In this document: positions 26,184 through 53,245 of the stretch, piece after piece
Numbering within the stretch: position 1 is the first letter of the stretch
Layout: each line of letters starts with the position of its first letter
Made by a program: the position numbers and the translations under genes
Source: Mesorhizobium sp. B2-4-3
GTDB lineage: Bacteria; Pseudomonadota; Alphaproteobacteria; Rhizobiales; Rhizobiaceae
Assembly (NCBI RefSeq): GCF_006442815.1
Contig: NZ_VFVL01000015.1
Coordinates: forward strand, 62,001 to 126,000
Direction: 5' to 3'
DNA: 64,000 bases
The notes under the pieces: model-generated
The model's input: the letters and a program-made list of their open reading frames with translations, nothing else
Databases searched by the model: none
What the model was told of the DNA's origin: nothing

Positions 26184-26223
26184 AGCGAACGAAGTTCGTC
26201 TTCAGCGAACGAAGTTCGTCTTC
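26184..26223 (+). repeat. Perfect 20-nt tandem duplication between the two sRNA units
   Basis: AGCGAACGAAGTTCGTCTTC occurs twice head to tail (26184-26203 and 26204-26223). Each copy contains a small palindrome CGAAC-GAA-GTTCG. It is followed by AGGGG-TTTCGC-CCCCT (26225-26240), another small hairpin. Confidence 0.85.
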
Positions 26224-40002: not shown

Positions 40003-40140
40003 CGCACTAACCCGCACAGACCCGGTACAAACTGGTCACGATTAAAGCGCGTTAATGTTACTGGGCGGTTAACCCATTAGAATCCGACAAAAATTTTCTT
40101 AAAACATTGGCGGAAATTTTGGCGAAGAGCCGTAAGGCCG

Positions 40141-40794
40141 CTAAATCACCATCGCGACGCTGCGCAGGATAGGCTGCAGCCTGACCATGCCGATGTCCTC
40201 GCGCTCGAAGCGGCTGCCGACCTTGGTGAGCTTGGCCAGCACCTGCCCGCCTTCTTCCGGGCCGATCGGCGCGATGACGATGCCGCCGCTCGACAATTGG
40301 TCGAGCAGGAAGCGCGGCAGGCTGTCGAAGACTGCCCAGGCGACGATACGGTCGAACGGCCCTTCATTGGGCAGGCCGTTGGAACCGTCGGCCTGGCGGG
40401 CGATGACGTTGCTGATGGCGAGCGCCTCGAAGCGCTGCTTTGCCTGCTCGGTCAGGGTCTTGTAGCGGTCGACGGTGATGATGCGCGCCGCAAGCCTCGA
40501 CATGACGGCGGCCGTGTAGCCCGAGCCGGTGCCGATCTCGAGCACGCGGTTGCCCGGCTCGATGTGGAGCGCGGCGATCACCGCCGCCTGCAGATCGGCG
40601 CCCTCGATCGCCTCGCCGCATTCGATCGGCAGCATGCCGTCCGACCAGGCGACCGCATGGAACTGCGCCGGCAGGAAACCACGCCGCGGCGTCGCCTCGA
40701 AGGCGGCGACCAGCGCCTTCGGCGCCGCACCTCTGCCCCGCAGCCTGAGCAGGAAAGCGGCGAAACCTTCGCGGTCGTCGATGCCCGTGTTCAT
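40141..40794 (-). CDS. pcm: Protein-L-isoaspartate O-methyltransferase
   Basis: Repairs isoaspartyl residues in aged proteins using S-adenosylmethionine. 217 residues. Motif I is VLEIGTGSGYTAAVMS, with the upstream active-site segment MLPIECGEAIEGADLQAA (family PYxDxP/IGxGQTIS region, modified) and FDRIVAWAVFDSLPRFLLDQL. Start ATG at 40794, overlapped by the stop of a mini-ORF in an ATGA; see the mini-ORF ladder between surE and pcm. Confidence 0.9.
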   Translation of the reverse strand: MNTGIDDREGFAAFLLRLRGRGAAPKALVAAFEATPRRGFLPAQFHAVAWSDGMLPIECGEAIEGADLQAAVIAALHIEPGNRVLEIGTGSGYTAAVMSRLAARIITVDRYKTLTEQAKQRFEALAISNVIARQADGSNGLPNEGPFDRIVAWAVFDSLPRFLLDQLSSGGIVIAPIGPEEGGQVLAKLTKVGSRFEREDIGMVRLQPILRSVAMVI

Positions 40795-40858
40795 GCCAAA
40801 ACCGTGTTCATGCCAAAACCCTATTCATGCCAACGCCTTGTTCATGACAGCGCCTTGG
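40791..40858 (-). repeat. Four-step 17-nt repeat forming three coupled mini-ORFs between surE and pcm
   Basis: ATG codons occur at 40845, 40828, 40811 and 40794, exactly 17 nt apart. The first three each open a six-codon ORF ending in GCATGA (peptides MNKALA, MNRVLA, MNTVLA), whose TGA overlaps the next ATG as ATGA; the fourth ATG is pcm. The surE stop also overlaps the first ATG as ATGA, and the last surE codons (ACCAAGGCGCTGTCATGA) resemble the repeat unit, so the array probably arose by duplication of the surE-pcm junction. Confidence 0.9.
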
Positions 40859-41600
40859 TCAGCTGGTCGCGGAGTTCATGGGCGGTGAGGTCGAGCTGCA
40901 GCGGCGTCACCGACACCAGCCGGTTGCGCATCGCATGGAGGTCCGTGCCCTTCTTGCCTTCGACCGGCTCGCGGCCGAAGCGCAGCCAGTAGTAAGGCAG
41001 GCCGCGCCCGTCGCGCCGCTCGTCGACCCACAGGCTGTGCACCAGCTTGCCCTGCGCGGTAACGACGGTGCCCTCCACTTCGTCGGGCGCGCAGTTCGGG
41101 AAATTGACATTGAGCAGCACGCCTTCCGGCAGCGGCGTTTCCACCAAGCGCTTGAGCAGCGCCGGAGCCAGCGCCTCGGTCGTCTCGTAAGGAACGACGC
41201 GATCCTCGCCGACATAGGAATAGGCCTGGCTGACCGCGATCGAGCGCACGCCGAGCAGCGCGCCTTCCATGGCGCCCGCAACGGTGCCGGAATAGGTGAC
41301 GTCGTCGGCGATGTTGGCGCCGGAATTGACGCCGGACAGGATAAGGTCCGGCCGTCCGGGCAGGATTTTCTTCGTGCCCATGATGACGCAGTCGGTCGGC
41401 GTGCCGCGCACGGCGTAATGCTTCTCGCCGATCTTGCGCAGCCGGAGCGGCTCCGAGATCGACAACGAATGCGCATAGCCGGACTGGTCCTGCTCCGGCG
41501 CGACCACCCAGACGTCGTCCGACAGCGTGCGGGCTATGCGTTCGAGCGACGCCAGCCCCTCGGCGTGGATGCCGTCGTCATTGGTCAGGAGAATGCGCAT
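40842..41600 (-). CDS. surE: 5'/3'-nucleotidase SurE
   Basis: Survival protein E, a metal-dependent nucleotidase, 252 residues from the ATG at 41600. It has the family opening [16 protein letters not shown] (metal ligands D8-D9), then [40 protein letters not shown] and NVNFPNC. It lies 4 nt after serS and ends in the mini-ORF ladder leading to pcm, so serS-surE-pcm are co-transcribed. Confidence 0.95.
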
Positions 41601-41604
41601 CAAG

Positions 41605-42909
41605 TCATTTCGATTCGATCTTGGCGAGACCACCCATGTAAGGCCGCAGCACTTCAGGAATGGTTACGCTGCCATCCTCGTTCTGGTAGTTTTCGATGAC
41701 GGCGATAAGAGCGCGGCCGACCGCGGTGCCCGAGCCGTTCAACGTATGGACGAAGCGATTGCCCTTGCCGTCCTTGTCCTTGTAGCGGGCATCCATGCGC
41801 CTGGCCTGGAAGTCGCCGCAAACCGAGCAGGACGAGATTTCGCGATAGGCGTTCTGCCCCGGCAGCCAGACCTCGATGTCATAGGTCTTGCGCGCGCCGA
41901 AGCCCATGTCGCCGGTGCAGAGCGTGACCGTGCGGAACGGCAGGCCGAGCCGCTTCAGCACCTCCTCGGCGCATTCAGTCATCCGCTCATGCTCGGCGAT
42001 CGAGCTTTCCTGGTCGGTGATCGAGACCAGCTCGACCTTGTAGAACTGGTGCTGGCGCAGCATGCCACGCGTGTCGCGGCCGGCCGAGCCCGCTTCCGAA
42101 CGGAAGCATGGCGTCAACGCCGTGTAGCGCAGCGGCAGCTTTTCATGTGCGGTGATTTCCTCGCGCACGAGATTTGTCAGCGGCACCTCGGCCGTCGGGA
42201 TCAGGCCGAGGCGACTGTCGCCGTGCGGCGTGAAGAACAGGTCCAGCTCGAATTTCGGCAGCTGGTTGGTGCCGAAAAGCACCTCGTCGCGCACCATCAG
42301 CGGCGGGATGATCTCTTCATAGCCGTGCTCGGTGGTGTGCAGGTCGATCATGTATTGGCCGAGCGCCCGCTCCAGACGCGCCAGCTGGCTCTTCAGCACC
42401 GTGAAGCGCGAGCCGGACAGCTTCGCTGCCCGCTCGAAATCCATCATGCCGAGCGCTTCGCCGATCTCGAAATGCTCCTTCACCCAATTCGGACGCGTCG
42501 GCACCTCGCCGACGATGCGCTTGACGACATTGTCGTGCTCGTCCTTACCGACTGGGACGTCATCAAGCGGCACGTTGGGCAGCACCGCCAGCGCGTCGTC
42601 CAGCGCCTTGTCGAGCTCGCGCTCGCGCGCCTCGCCATTCTGGATGAACGCCTTGATGTCGCTGACCTCGCCTTTGAGCTTCTCGGCGAGTGCTGAATCG
42701 CCCGAACGCATGGCATTGCCGATCTCCTTCGAGGCGGCGTTGCGACGCTCCTGCTTGAGCTGCAAATCACTTAGATGCGTGCGCCGCGCCTCGTCCTTGG
42801 CGATCAGGTCGTCGACCGTGGACTGCGCATCGCCCGTCGACCAGGAACGCTTCACCAGCGCTTCCGCAAGGGCCTTCGGGTTGTCGCGAATCCATTTGAT
42901 ATCAAGCAT
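41605..42909 (-). CDS. serS: Seryl-tRNA synthetase
   Basis: Class II synthetase, 434 residues. N-terminal coiled-coil tRNA-binding arm (residues about 30-110), motif 2 ([22 protein letters not shown]) and motif 3 ([20 protein letters not shown]) are all present, together with the serine-pocket segment [17 protein letters not shown]. Standard length and domain order. First gene of serS-surE-pcm. Confidence 0.96.
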
Positions 42910-50800: not shown

Positions 50801-51302
50801 CAAAAGCGACTTCCGGCTCGGGAGCTTCTTGTGGCTCCGGCGCGAAATGCGGCTCCGCTGCAAAATGCGCCTCCGGCGCGAAATCCGGCTCCGGCGCGAA
50901 ATTCGGCTCCGGCGCACGGGCCACGGCGAAATCGGCATGATCCGCCGCGTCGTCGAACACGAAATCCTGCTCGAAGGACGCGGTGAGCTCGTCGTCGTTC
51001 GCGGCGGCGCTGGCGGGCTCGAAAGCCGGCTCATGGCCGATCTGATGCAGGGCAGCCTGCTGAGCGACCAGCTCGCTTTCCTCGACGGAATCGAACTCTC
51101 CCATCAACTCCTTCTCGAGGTCGATGTCGAAATCGTCCGCCGCTGGAGCCTGATTGGCCGGCACGGCCTTCTCGGCCGCGGGAGCCGGCTGCCGCACCGG
51201 CTGGCGCGGGTCGAAACCCATGATCCGGGTCAGTTCCGCGAACGGATCATCGGCGGCGATATCGTTGTGGTCGGCTACTTTCAGCGGGGTTCTGTCTGCC
51301 AT
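47850..51302 (-). CDS. Large SPOR-domain cell-envelope protein
   Basis: 1150 residues. A very acidic, Ala/Pro/Glu-rich cytoplasmic region (about residues 1-760) with degenerate repeats such as FAPEPDFAPEAHFAAEP; a single helix (GVMMAALVGAVVVLGGLGALAFSF); an Ala/Pro-rich periplasmic linker; and a C-terminal SPOR domain (SWSMQIASQPTVESAQSTYQDLQ ... AIAMCTSYKAAGGNCFVSR). SPOR domains bind denuded septal glycans, so a role at the division site is likely. Located between nagZ and argS, all on the minus strand. Confidence 0.9.
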   Translation of the reverse strand: MADRTPLKVADHNDIAADDPFAELTRIMGFDPRQPVRQPAPAAEKAVPANQAPAADDFDIDLEKELMGEFDSVEESELVAQQAALHQIGHEPAFEPASAAANDDELTASFEQDFVFDDAADHADFAVARAPEPNFAPEPDFAPEAHFAAEPHFAPEPQEAPEPEVAFDDDFDKAVASSLDVSPLEDELPIDQEMAASLDQDFQLDHHEPANLDDHEDHEPAEARQNAVEAVQAATEDAFNADFDNAVQMSLEDELSFESHEPEQQAQAAGPAEAYAADPPISEDDFAGHFDQAMTDVDINLGQDQDLQEPELAVDDDPAPMVEAPTETAHFAAEPEFAAPEPAAALTLDDDFELSFRDALNEEPQAPAVDPAAALQPAAVEPTPVVAAPVPPVAAVEPARPAASERSLEDELNALLGAMTARPMPAVKEPAPAPRLVAEPASYAGGKAAADDLDWDLDEHQQAQNGQGAQPAESDMDDLLASELDRQDFSSSAKTEADVDFDDDFGAAFAKSIEAEQAAAATARSPVNSSDWLHSTPTESAKSWSRSTPTSAPPVQASFAAQPAPSAPAQMAPPSAPVQMAAPAYRSEPATDYSAYAKPAQSPAPSSPPRQHEDVPDVETVDVPERVVALADDLDIPELSFEEDQPAAPAYDDLDAEFASLLTDMNATEIAPAPAQNRGYDDESYSAGFNGYDRRDLRTEAPAAPVAPASLAVANDYDADDLPGSRPVSQAEDFAADELDYDPELEEAMAIPGLAEREAAQPRRRGVMMAALVGAVVVLGGLGALAFSFGGKGGSEAPVIVKADNSPIKVKPENPGGTVVPNQDNKVYDAVAKGGGAAKPAEPVQQKLVNTTEQPVDLASKEPPPSRVVDLSPNDDAAAGTDAADDSAAALPGVAQATVPQSAQPAAQASAQPAAPAPKSEDRIAQVLQQDADNTVNNDVVAVAPRKVKTMMVKPDGSLVPREDPAPAAPKVAAAEPSDPAPQHVAAASDGQQTGTVASDASQSDTGQADAPAVKPAKAAKKAEAKAQSANTPAVVPVAPARPSDQPVDIVGEVKPDQVASIDPAAAAGSGSWSMQIASQPTVESAQSTYQDLQRRYGSVLSGRTASIVKAEVAGKGTFYRVRVPAKSRNDAIAMCTSYKAAGGNCFVSR

Positions 51303-51405: not shown

Positions 51406-53163
51406 CTAACGCATTTCAGTGGGCGCGTCTGCCCCGATCAGCGTCAGGCCGGAGGTCAAGACATCCGAAACAGCCTGCACCAGCCCTAGTCTGGCATAGG
51501 TTGATTCTCGGTCGTTAACCTTAACAAAACGTAAGTCCTGGTTGTCGTGGCCGCGATTCCACTGTGCATGGAAGCCGGAAGCCAGATCGTAGAGGTAGAA
51601 TGCGAGCCGGTGAGGCTCCAGCGAAAGCGCCGCGGACTCGATCAGCCTTGGATATTCAGCCAGCTTCCGGATCAGCGCGATTTCGCCCTCGTCGGTCAGC
51701 GCAGCCACGGAAGCCGCCAGCCGGTTGCGGTCGAAATTCGCCTCGCCGAGCTGCTCGCTCGCCTGCCTGAAGACGGAATGGCAGCGCGCCGACGCGTACT
51801 GCACGTAGAACACCGGATTGTCCTTCGACTGCTCCGTGACCTTGGCGAAGTCGAAATCGAGCGGCGCGTCGTTCTTGCGGTAAAGCATCATGAAGCGGAT
51901 CGGGTCGCGGCCGACCTCCTCCACGACCTCGCGCAGAGTGATGAAATCGCCGGACCGTTTCGACATGCGGACCGGCTCGCCGTCGCGGAACAGTTTCACG
52001 AGCTGGCAAAGCAGCACGGTGAGCTTGACCGTGTCGCCGGCAACCGCCCGCGCCAGCGCCTCCAGCCGCTTCACATAGCCGCCATGGTCGGCGCCGAGCA
52101 CATAGATCAGGTCGACGAAGTCGCGCTCGACCTTGTCCTTCAGATAGGCGACGTCGGCGGCGAAATAGGTGAACGAGCCATCGGACTTGACCAGCGCCCG
52201 GTCCATGTCGTCGCCGACCGCCGTCGAGCGGAACAGCGTCTGCTCGCGGTCTTCCCAGTCGTCCGGCTTCTCGCCCTTCGGCGGCGGCAGCTTGCCCTTG
52301 TAGATGTGGCCCTTGAGCGTCAGGTCGGCGATCGCCGCCCGGATTCTCTTGGCGTTGTCGGCATGCAGCGTGCGCTCGGAGAAGAACACGTCGTGATGCA
52401 CATTGAGCAGCGCCAGGTCCTCGCGGATCATCGCCATCATCGCATCGACGGTGCGGTCCTTGACGATCGCCAGCGCTTCATCTTCCGGCATCTGCAGCAG
52501 GCCGCGGCTGAATTCCTTGGCCAGCGCCTGGCCGACGGGGACCAGATAGTCGCCCGGATAGAGACCAGACGGGATCTCGCCGATATCGTCGCCGAGCGCC
52601 TCGCGATAGCGCAGGAACGCCGAGCGGCCGAGCACGTCGATCTGCGAGCCGGCGTCGTTGATGACATATTCCTTGGTCACGTCGTAGCCGGCGAACGCCA
52701 TCAGATTGGCCAAGGTGTCGCCGACCACGGCGCCCCGGCAATGGCCGACATGCATGGGGCCGGTCGGGTTGGCCGAAACATATTCGACATTGGCCTTGCG
52801 GCCGCCGCCGATGGTCGAGCGGCCATAGTTGCGCCCTTCGCCGAGCAACGTCGTCAGATGCACGTGCCAGAACGCGTCCTTGAGCCTGAGATTGACGAAG
52901 CCCGGCCCGGCGATCTCGGCCGAGGCAACGTCTGCGTCGGCGCGGAGCGCTTCGGCCAGTCTTTCGGCAAGCGCGCGCGGGTTCTGTCCGGTGGGCTTGG
53001 CCAGCACCATCGCCGCATTGGTGGCGAGATCGCCATGGCTTGCATCGCGCGGCGGCTCGACCGCGACACGCGACAGGTCGAGCGCGGCCCCATCCTTGTC
53101 CTTGAGATCAAGGGCTTCGACGGCCTTTACGATCCGCGCGTTGAAATCGGCGAAGATATTCAT
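51406..53163 (-). CDS. argS: Arginyl-tRNA synthetase
   Basis: Class I synthetase, 585 residues. The HIGH-type motif is [19 protein letters not shown], the KMSKS-type motif is [13 protein letters not shown], and the C-terminal DALR anticodon-binding domain ends the protein. The ATG at 53163 is embedded in the second unit of a 21-nt tandem repeat and lacks a clear ribosome site. Downstream of dgt, probably co-transcribed. Confidence 0.95.
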
Positions 53164-53203
53164 TGGATATGCTCTGGGCTTTATTGGATATGCTCTGGGC
53201 TTT
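53162..53203 (-). repeat. 21-nt tandem duplication at the argS start
   Basis: AAAGCCCAGAGCATATCCAAT repeated twice on the minus strand. The downstream copy runs into the argS ATG (..CCAATG) and the upstream copy reads ..CCAATA. Unit length is seven codons, so the copies are in the same frame. Confidence 0.9.
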
Positions 53204-53245
53204 AAGAGACAACCGGCAGCCTGGCCGGCAAAATCGAGGCTCGCC

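Follow-up and report, generated by a model that had tools for sequence, protein, structure and literature searches.

The window, the whole 64-kb stretch of DNA analysed here, carries on its minus strand serS, surE, pcm and a LysM/M23 (DipM/NlpD-like) gene, in this order. The identity of serS is backed by NCBIfam, pcm scores 232 bits with NCBIfam NF001453 (cut-off 188), and the LysM/M23 gene has DipM as its top NCBIfam match, under the cut-off (360 vs 740 bits). Further family matches are given in Table 1, those of surE coming from Pfam and NCBIfam scans of 40845-41603, which take in one extra codon at the start. Between surE and pcm runs a ladder of four ATGs (40845, 40828, 40811 and 40794 on the minus strand), the fourth of which is the pcm start. 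The surE stop TGA (40844-40842) overlaps the first ladder ATG, and the TGA of each mini-ORF sits inside the next ATGA. The AAGG before the first ladder ATG has a weak duplex energy, and no alternative in-frame pcm start (ATG, GTG or TTG) was found between the ATG at the ladder end and the upstream stop.

Table 1. Features of the surE-pcm junction and its two flanking genes, in window coordinates.
Feature	Position	Strand	Description and evidence
surE	40842..41600	-	252 aa; Pfam PF01975, E 1.6e-59; NCBIfam NF001490, 370 bits (cut-off 233)
pcm, protein-L-isoaspartate O-methyltransferase	40141..40794	-	217 aa; Pfam PF01135, E 8.6e-42
AAGG, SD-like	40853..40856	-	7 nt before the first ladder ATG, within the final surE codons; sequence
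mini-ORF 1, MNKALA*	40825..40845	-	sequence
mini-ORF 2, MNRVLA*	40808..40828	-	sequence
mini-ORF 3, MNTVLA*	40791..40811	-	TGA overlaps the pcm ATG; sequence
17-nt tandem array	40791..40858	-	about four copies including the surE end; TRF period 17

A preliminary description of this DNA had reported four ATGs 17 nt apart and three chained mini-ORFs leading from the surE stop to pcm, and both are confirmed on the letters, by TRF and by shuffling; that the array lies on the minus strand and is a minority state in the genus (36 of 144 genomes) was absent from that description. TRF returned two overlapping rows for the array (3.6 and 4.4 copies; score 89). The pattern ATGA-N13-ATGA-N13-ATGA has 2 matches in the window and none in 100 dinucleotide shuffles, and across the 6.2-Mb genome the surE-pcm array is the sole place with three ATGAs 17 nt apart (reversed control, 0). 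Searched with at most one mismatch, ATGANNNNGGNNTTGGCATGA has three exact sites in the genome, all within the array, and one one-mismatch site elsewhere. An Rfam scan of 40100-41700 gave no family at gathering score, so no known attenuator or leader RNA was matched there. Elsewhere in the window, TRF found two-copy exact tandem repeats of 20 and 21 bp (26184-26223 and 53162-53204) and an 18-bp repeat of 4.6 copies (50833-50915), perhaps an in-frame coding repeat.

The composition of the unit points to its origin. Unit 1 consists of ATG-AAC, the first two pcm codons, followed by AAG-GCG-TTG-GCA-TGA, which resembles the four final codons and the stop of surE; surE ends in AAG-GCG-CTG-TCA-TGA (KALS) in the source genome and in KALA in many relatives. 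In two sister genomes, AAGGCATTGGCATGAAC is found once (G089) and twice without mismatch (G077), a one-copy difference that is either a gain or a loss. Growth of the array by junction duplication, as proposed in the preliminary description, is strongly supported by this exact copy, by the chimera of a pcm start and a surE end, and by the range of 0-3 copies; judging from these sequences, duplication origin and copy-number variation are almost certainly correct. The unit comprises a whole start site (GG core, 7 nt, ATG), and start, stop, overlap, SD-like GG and spacing arrive as one package because all of them lie inside the copied piece. Its length matters as well: the next TGA closes a new ORF opened by a copied ATGA junction only if the copied length is 2 mod 3, and since 17 is 2 mod 3, every copied ATG is closed by the TGA of the following copy. 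A copied length of 0 mod 3 would lengthen Pcm, and one of 1 mod 3 would open an out-of-register frame into pcm.

We searched 146 genomes of the genus for Pcm, with 144 positives (the two genomes without pcm are 90% and 79% complete), and read the surE-pcm junction in all 144, assigning units from the spacing between the surE stop and the pcm start. Extra units number 0, 1, 2 and 3 in 108, 21, 11 and 4 of these species-level genomes, respectively. An ATG lies on the surE stop in 107 of the 108 array-free genomes, the exception (G074) having a longer surE with the pcm ATG 7 nt before its stop. On an IQ-TREE tree of surE and pcm with the junction left out (one row, G073, being short at 807 nt), array presence requires at least 11 changes (well-supported branches force 9 of these) and copy number at least 19; a quick tree and a careful bootstrapped tree agree on these counts. 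In having a tandem unit whose copy number differs among related genomes, the array resembles a VNTR or minisatellite. For the order, 121 genomes were searched, 119 had a pcm match and 27 loci from outside the genus were read, one of them without a nearby surE. A start lies on the surE stop in 5 of the 26 loci with both genes (2 ATG, 2 GTG, 1 TTG), which makes this overlap a trait of the genus and not of the order.

The arrays do not keep all their signals equally. At the first junction, the 36 arrays have ATGA in 15 cases and GTGA in 2, and the start is lost in 19 (ATAA 11, ATAG 3, shifted TAA 5), a loss that needs 8 or 9 changes on the trees; 11 arrays, all of one unit, have no mini-ORF left. 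The internal junctions of the 15 multi-unit arrays, in contrast, are ATGA in 19 of 19 cases. Where a ladder start is present (36 units), the unit always measures 17 nt, ends at the next ATGA and encodes six codons, whereas among the 19 first units without a start, counted from the stop of surE, 9 deviate from 17 nt. Fisher tests of these contrasts gave 4.7e-5 and 1.5e-5, both ignoring relatedness, and a rough branch-length estimate predicts about 5 internal losses at the first-junction rate, against none in 19. Pure neutrality is strained by these expected losses and by the retention of every internal start against 17 of 36 first starts; internal starts may be kept for hand-over, or the multi-unit arrays may merely be young. 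The contrast in length suggests that an unclosed ladder start is selected against, whereas loss of the start is tolerated. There is one counter-case, G079, in which an additional ATG within a unit lies 13 nt upstream of pcm and starts a 147-codon frame overlapping pcm out of register. The GG core is kept at its two positions in 35/36 and 36/36 units, and 25 distinct sequences occur among 36 units with positions 6, 8, 11 and 12 variable, so there are no conserved regulatory codons. The comparison of copy number and ATGA retention suggested in the preliminary description bears out the chain at the internal junctions and departs from it in the 108 genomes without an array and the 19 lost first starts; relatives that break the ATGA chain, the sequence half of what that description had named as contrary to its proposal, do exist in the form of these 19 arrays, among them the 11 mini-ORF-free ones. 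In five genomes (G006, G035, G051, G114 and G138), surE has gained one codon and its TAA stop lies inside TAAGG, which presumably serves the next ladder start as SD.

Some units recur in distant clades. The GGTTTTGGCATGAAC unit occurs in clades that have, next to it, a surE matching the clade itself and not the main array clade, a distribution that is explained neither by simple independent duplication nor by a long recombination tract. A long recombination tract importing the array was rejected on the grounds that the flanking surE of each distant genome matches its own clade; this tract search left out misregistered indel columns (pcm of G121, G010, G109 and G112; surE of G114 and G138). A GCGTTGTCATAAATAAGGTTTTGGCATGAAC block is common to G004/G084 and G121/G010, clades about 10-13% apart in flanking surE, and its sharing may stem from an ancient array with many later losses, from conversion over a very short tract, or from convergence.

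SD pairing of pcm, computed with what we take to be the anti-SD tail, reaches its weakest values (-1.4 to -1.6 kcal/mol) in the four genomes with three units. Mean energies do not separate the 107 array-free genomes (-3.3 kcal/mol) from those with one-unit arrays (-3.5). So weak an SD of its own would fit a pcm that is supplied from upstream in the 3-unit arrays, though four genomes do not amount to proof. The 11 startless one-unit arrays have a 12-13-nt gap with AAGG, AGGG or TAGG close before pcm. The mean unpaired probability of the pcm start region is 0.42, 0.32, 0.40 and 0.33 for 0 to 3 units, and a role of the array as a spacer that opens the start is unsupported, as openness does not rise with the units.

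Ladders of this kind are also found beyond the genus. The pattern GG-N3-T-N-K-C-ATGA-N4-GG-N3-T-N-K-C-ATGA, run on one genome per species for 84,980 species, retrieved 112 loci with period 17, 15 of them surE-pcm and 97 others. The four free spacer bases are identical between copies in 48 of these 97 (best match per locus), against about 0.8 expected if the chance per base is 0.3. In 58 of the 97, one ORF ends at the first TGA and another starts at the last step, each of at least 50 codons or running off the locus, with some first steps being GTGA or TTGA; of these 58, 38 look like repeats as well, with one unit at 26 loci, two at 6, three at 3 and four at 3. A stricter ATGA-only count over all loci places 57 of 112 at junctions. 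Because long ORFs are cheap in G+C-rich DNA, multi-unit pairs were scanned with Pfam: 9 of the 12 pairs were examined, with both neighbours matched in 5 of the 9 and at least one in all 9. The named neighbours include a cytidylyltransferase (cdsA-like) and DXP reductoisomerase (dxr) at L201 (3 units, from a Desulfuromonadales MAG), a proC-like reductase and a histone deacetylase (L172, 3 units), DUF350 and spermidine synthase in Mycolicibacterium (L214, 2 units), and an ABC ATPase and MacB (L230, 2 units); no common function is apparent among the named neighbours of these 9 pairs. An unrelated 17-nt-repeat ATGA pair, outside surE-pcm, precedes a 198-codon ORF in Mesorhizobium ventifaucium (L184, 6201-6230). 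In an Acidimicrobiales MAG, an 828-codon ORF is preceded by four ATGAs at 17-nt intervals whose spacers are identical (L203, ~786-849), and another contig of this MAG (L205) has a two-unit ladder with a different unit.

The phase of such repeats was examined in viral contigs by scanning for GGAG-N5-ATGA pairs at eight periods (13, 14, 16, 17, 19, 20, 22 and 23), periods divisible by 3 being left out because coding repeats would dominate. A repeat was defined by at least 80% identity at the free positions; identical contexts were merged, and so, by hand, were the two windows of locus L355. Periods of 2 mod 3 (14, 17, 20 and 23) gave 3, 4, 2 and 2 repeats, 11 in all, and periods of 1 mod 3 (13, 16, 19 and 22) gave 1, 1, 0 and 0, a split of 11 to 2 with a one-sided binomial probability of about 0.011 in a small sample of 13 repeats. 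Pairs lying between two ORFs (at least 30 codons or running off the piece), repeat-like or not, favour 2 mod 3 by 15 to 3, and pairs that are both repeat-like and between ORFs by 4 to 0; distinct matches number 66 against 38, so that repeats taken as a share of them (11/66 vs 2/38) give a weaker contrast. The direction fits a frame filter, in a small sample, and we think it somewhat probable that frame-filtered junction duplications form a general class. A variable-period search of 398 genomes of the phylum, 65 of which had a match, was discarded as a test of the phase rule: the matches listed mostly have periods divisible by 3 within apparent Met-Gly-rich coding sequence, and the reversed control had matches in several genomes too, 16 of them in the genome that the window comes from. 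On the minus strand of genome G257 (C16:49645-49713), GGAGCAAACATGAG is present in several exact copies with a period of 14 (2 mod 3), perhaps another bacterial ladder; this unit equals that of viral locus L355 except for one base.

From the sequence comparisons we consider it rather likely that the array is a VNTR-like, frame-filtered duplication of the surE/pcm junction that passively preserves stop-start coupling. The overlap of surE and pcm would be duplicated as a piece made of a four-codon surE-type end, the ATGA overlap and the first two pcm codons, and the copies would be tolerated, gained, lost and worn down because SurE and Pcm are neither lengthened nor frameshifted. Ribosomes leaving surE would re-initiate at the overlapping ATG and be handed on at each ATGA, or alternatively could enter at any of the weak SDs; pcm would thus stay translated across the 47 nt that separate it from the surE stop, a distance over which stop-start coupling would otherwise fail. 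In E. coli, separating stop and start by 14 nt lowers re-initiation by 40-80%, and with 38 nt between them hardly any is left (PMC10666635, excerpts). Given this decay and the 47 nt between surE stop and pcm start, direct coupling should fail without the mini-ORFs; with them, every step would be the favoured -4 overlap, and stepwise re-initiation along the ladder is plausible. The 12-13 nt and the SD-like motif of the startless one-unit arrays could suffice for partial coupling or for fresh initiation. Overall, the array probably alters pcm output little, by mild tuning at most, without having been selected as a switch. Similar ladders at unrelated gene pairs in other bacteria make it probable that the ladder arose as an accident of copying, which is tolerated and lets translation continue, and that it is no dedicated switch; passive hand-over rather than a selected switch seems to us, on the sequences compared, fairly likely.

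A role in attenuating or timing pcm translation had been put forward in the preliminary description. Such a selected translational regulator, in which stepwise hopping with losses would let unit number set or time pcm output, could account for internal steps that are ATGA in 19 of 19 cases though first starts are often lost, for the closure of all 36 started units and the near-complete retention of the GG core (35/36 and 36/36), and for SD pairing that is weakest in 3-unit arrays, as if pcm relied there on incoming ribosomes. We nevertheless judge it improbable, and the attenuating or timing role finds no support, in view of the absence of the array from 108 of 144 genomes, the loss of the first start in 19 of 36 arrays and of any mini-ORF in 11, the at least 19 changes in copy number, and the ladders at unrelated gene pairs. 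It is also unlikely that the array serves as an uncoupling spacer, by which the surE stop would be freed from the pcm start, its TGA would become TAA or TAG, and pcm, having its own SD, would move towards independent initiation. ATGA or GTGA is retained at the first junction in 17 of 36 arrays, SD energies are alike on average with one unit and with none, and the start region is no more open with an array. In favour of the spacer are the ATAA (11), ATAG (3) and shifted TAA (5) found where 107 of 108 array-free genomes have ATG on the stop, and the AAGG, AGGG or TAGG near pcm in the 11 startless one-unit arrays.

The six-residue peptides might act themselves, as leader-peptide or toxin-like minigenes, and the six codons of all 36 closed units would agree with this; we regard it as very improbable, however, as the 25 distinct units among 36 change freely between the signals, the peptide is accounted for as a copy of the surE end, and no family reached the gathering score in the Rfam scan of 40100-41700. 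Chance or an assembly error has a negligible probability: the pattern is absent from all 100 shuffles, and the comparative data, with related units in the arrays of 36 genomes, refute it. Passive preservation of coupling by a tolerated duplication remains the reading that we prefer.

If junction duplication is harmless mainly at 2 mod 3, this would provide a simple and testable rule for the evolution of operon junctions and, if true, the rule predicts chained mini-ORFs at many gene pairs. The genus also offers a natural series of 0, 1, 2 and 3 steps for asking whether one ribosome re-initiates several times running. A bolder idea, which we find rather doubtful, is that ATGA ladders constitute a recurrent, unnamed and evolvable class of element, in which a stop-start overlap duplicated in tandem would persist mainly at unit lengths of 2 mod 3 and would form chains of self-closing mini-ORFs in many phyla and in phages, with a copy number that would tune translation of the next gene in the operon and leave both proteins intact. 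The open-licence literature that we searched yielded no paper on the surE-pcm junction, and none that treats tandem duplicates of stop-start junctions as a class.

The individual elements of the ladder have known counterparts. Among co-directed neighbouring genes of prokaryotes, no spacing is more common than a -4 nt overlap of stop and start (PMC10666635, excerpts), and termination-reinitiation has been described at gene pairs with this overlap (Huber et al. 2019, 2023, excerpts). Every step from surE through the mini-ORFs to pcm is likewise a standard ATGA overlap, but those pairs join full genes, whereas here three six-codon ORFs are chained between genes. Minigenes such as those of axe-txe, Bacillus subtilis ycbK and EHEC LEE1 raise or lower translation of the next gene in cis (PMC8708949, excerpts); the known minigenes covered there are single or paired and, unlike the ladder, not tandem copies of a gene overlap. 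The VNTR upstream of fpg1 in Mycobacterium tuberculosis is intergenic, and its length correlates modestly with mRNA (PMC2734929, excerpts). It resembles the array in placing tandem repeats between two genes and differs in its 55- and 79-bp units and 279-358-bp gap, the excerpts of this source containing no ATGA chaining.

The closest known kind is probably the mycobacterial MIRUs, as the array would act like a MIRU and yet be none. MIRUs and MIRU-VNTRs reportedly go back to Supply et al. in 1997, and MIRU unit lengths of 77 and 53 bp are also 2 mod 3. A MIRU is a repeat at a gene start whose inner ORF and the host gene share a -4 nt stop-start overlap, and its insertion disturbs little (PMC12548453, excerpts); MIRUs of 40-100 bp occupy 41 places, at 12 of which copy number varies between isolates (PMC2734929, excerpts). 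As in a MIRU, all three mini-ORFs overlap their neighbours by stop and start codons. Unlike MIRUs, which in these excerpts are 40-100 bp long, scattered and apparently mobile, the array has a unit of 17 nt, is confined to one locus of the genome and derives from the junction itself.
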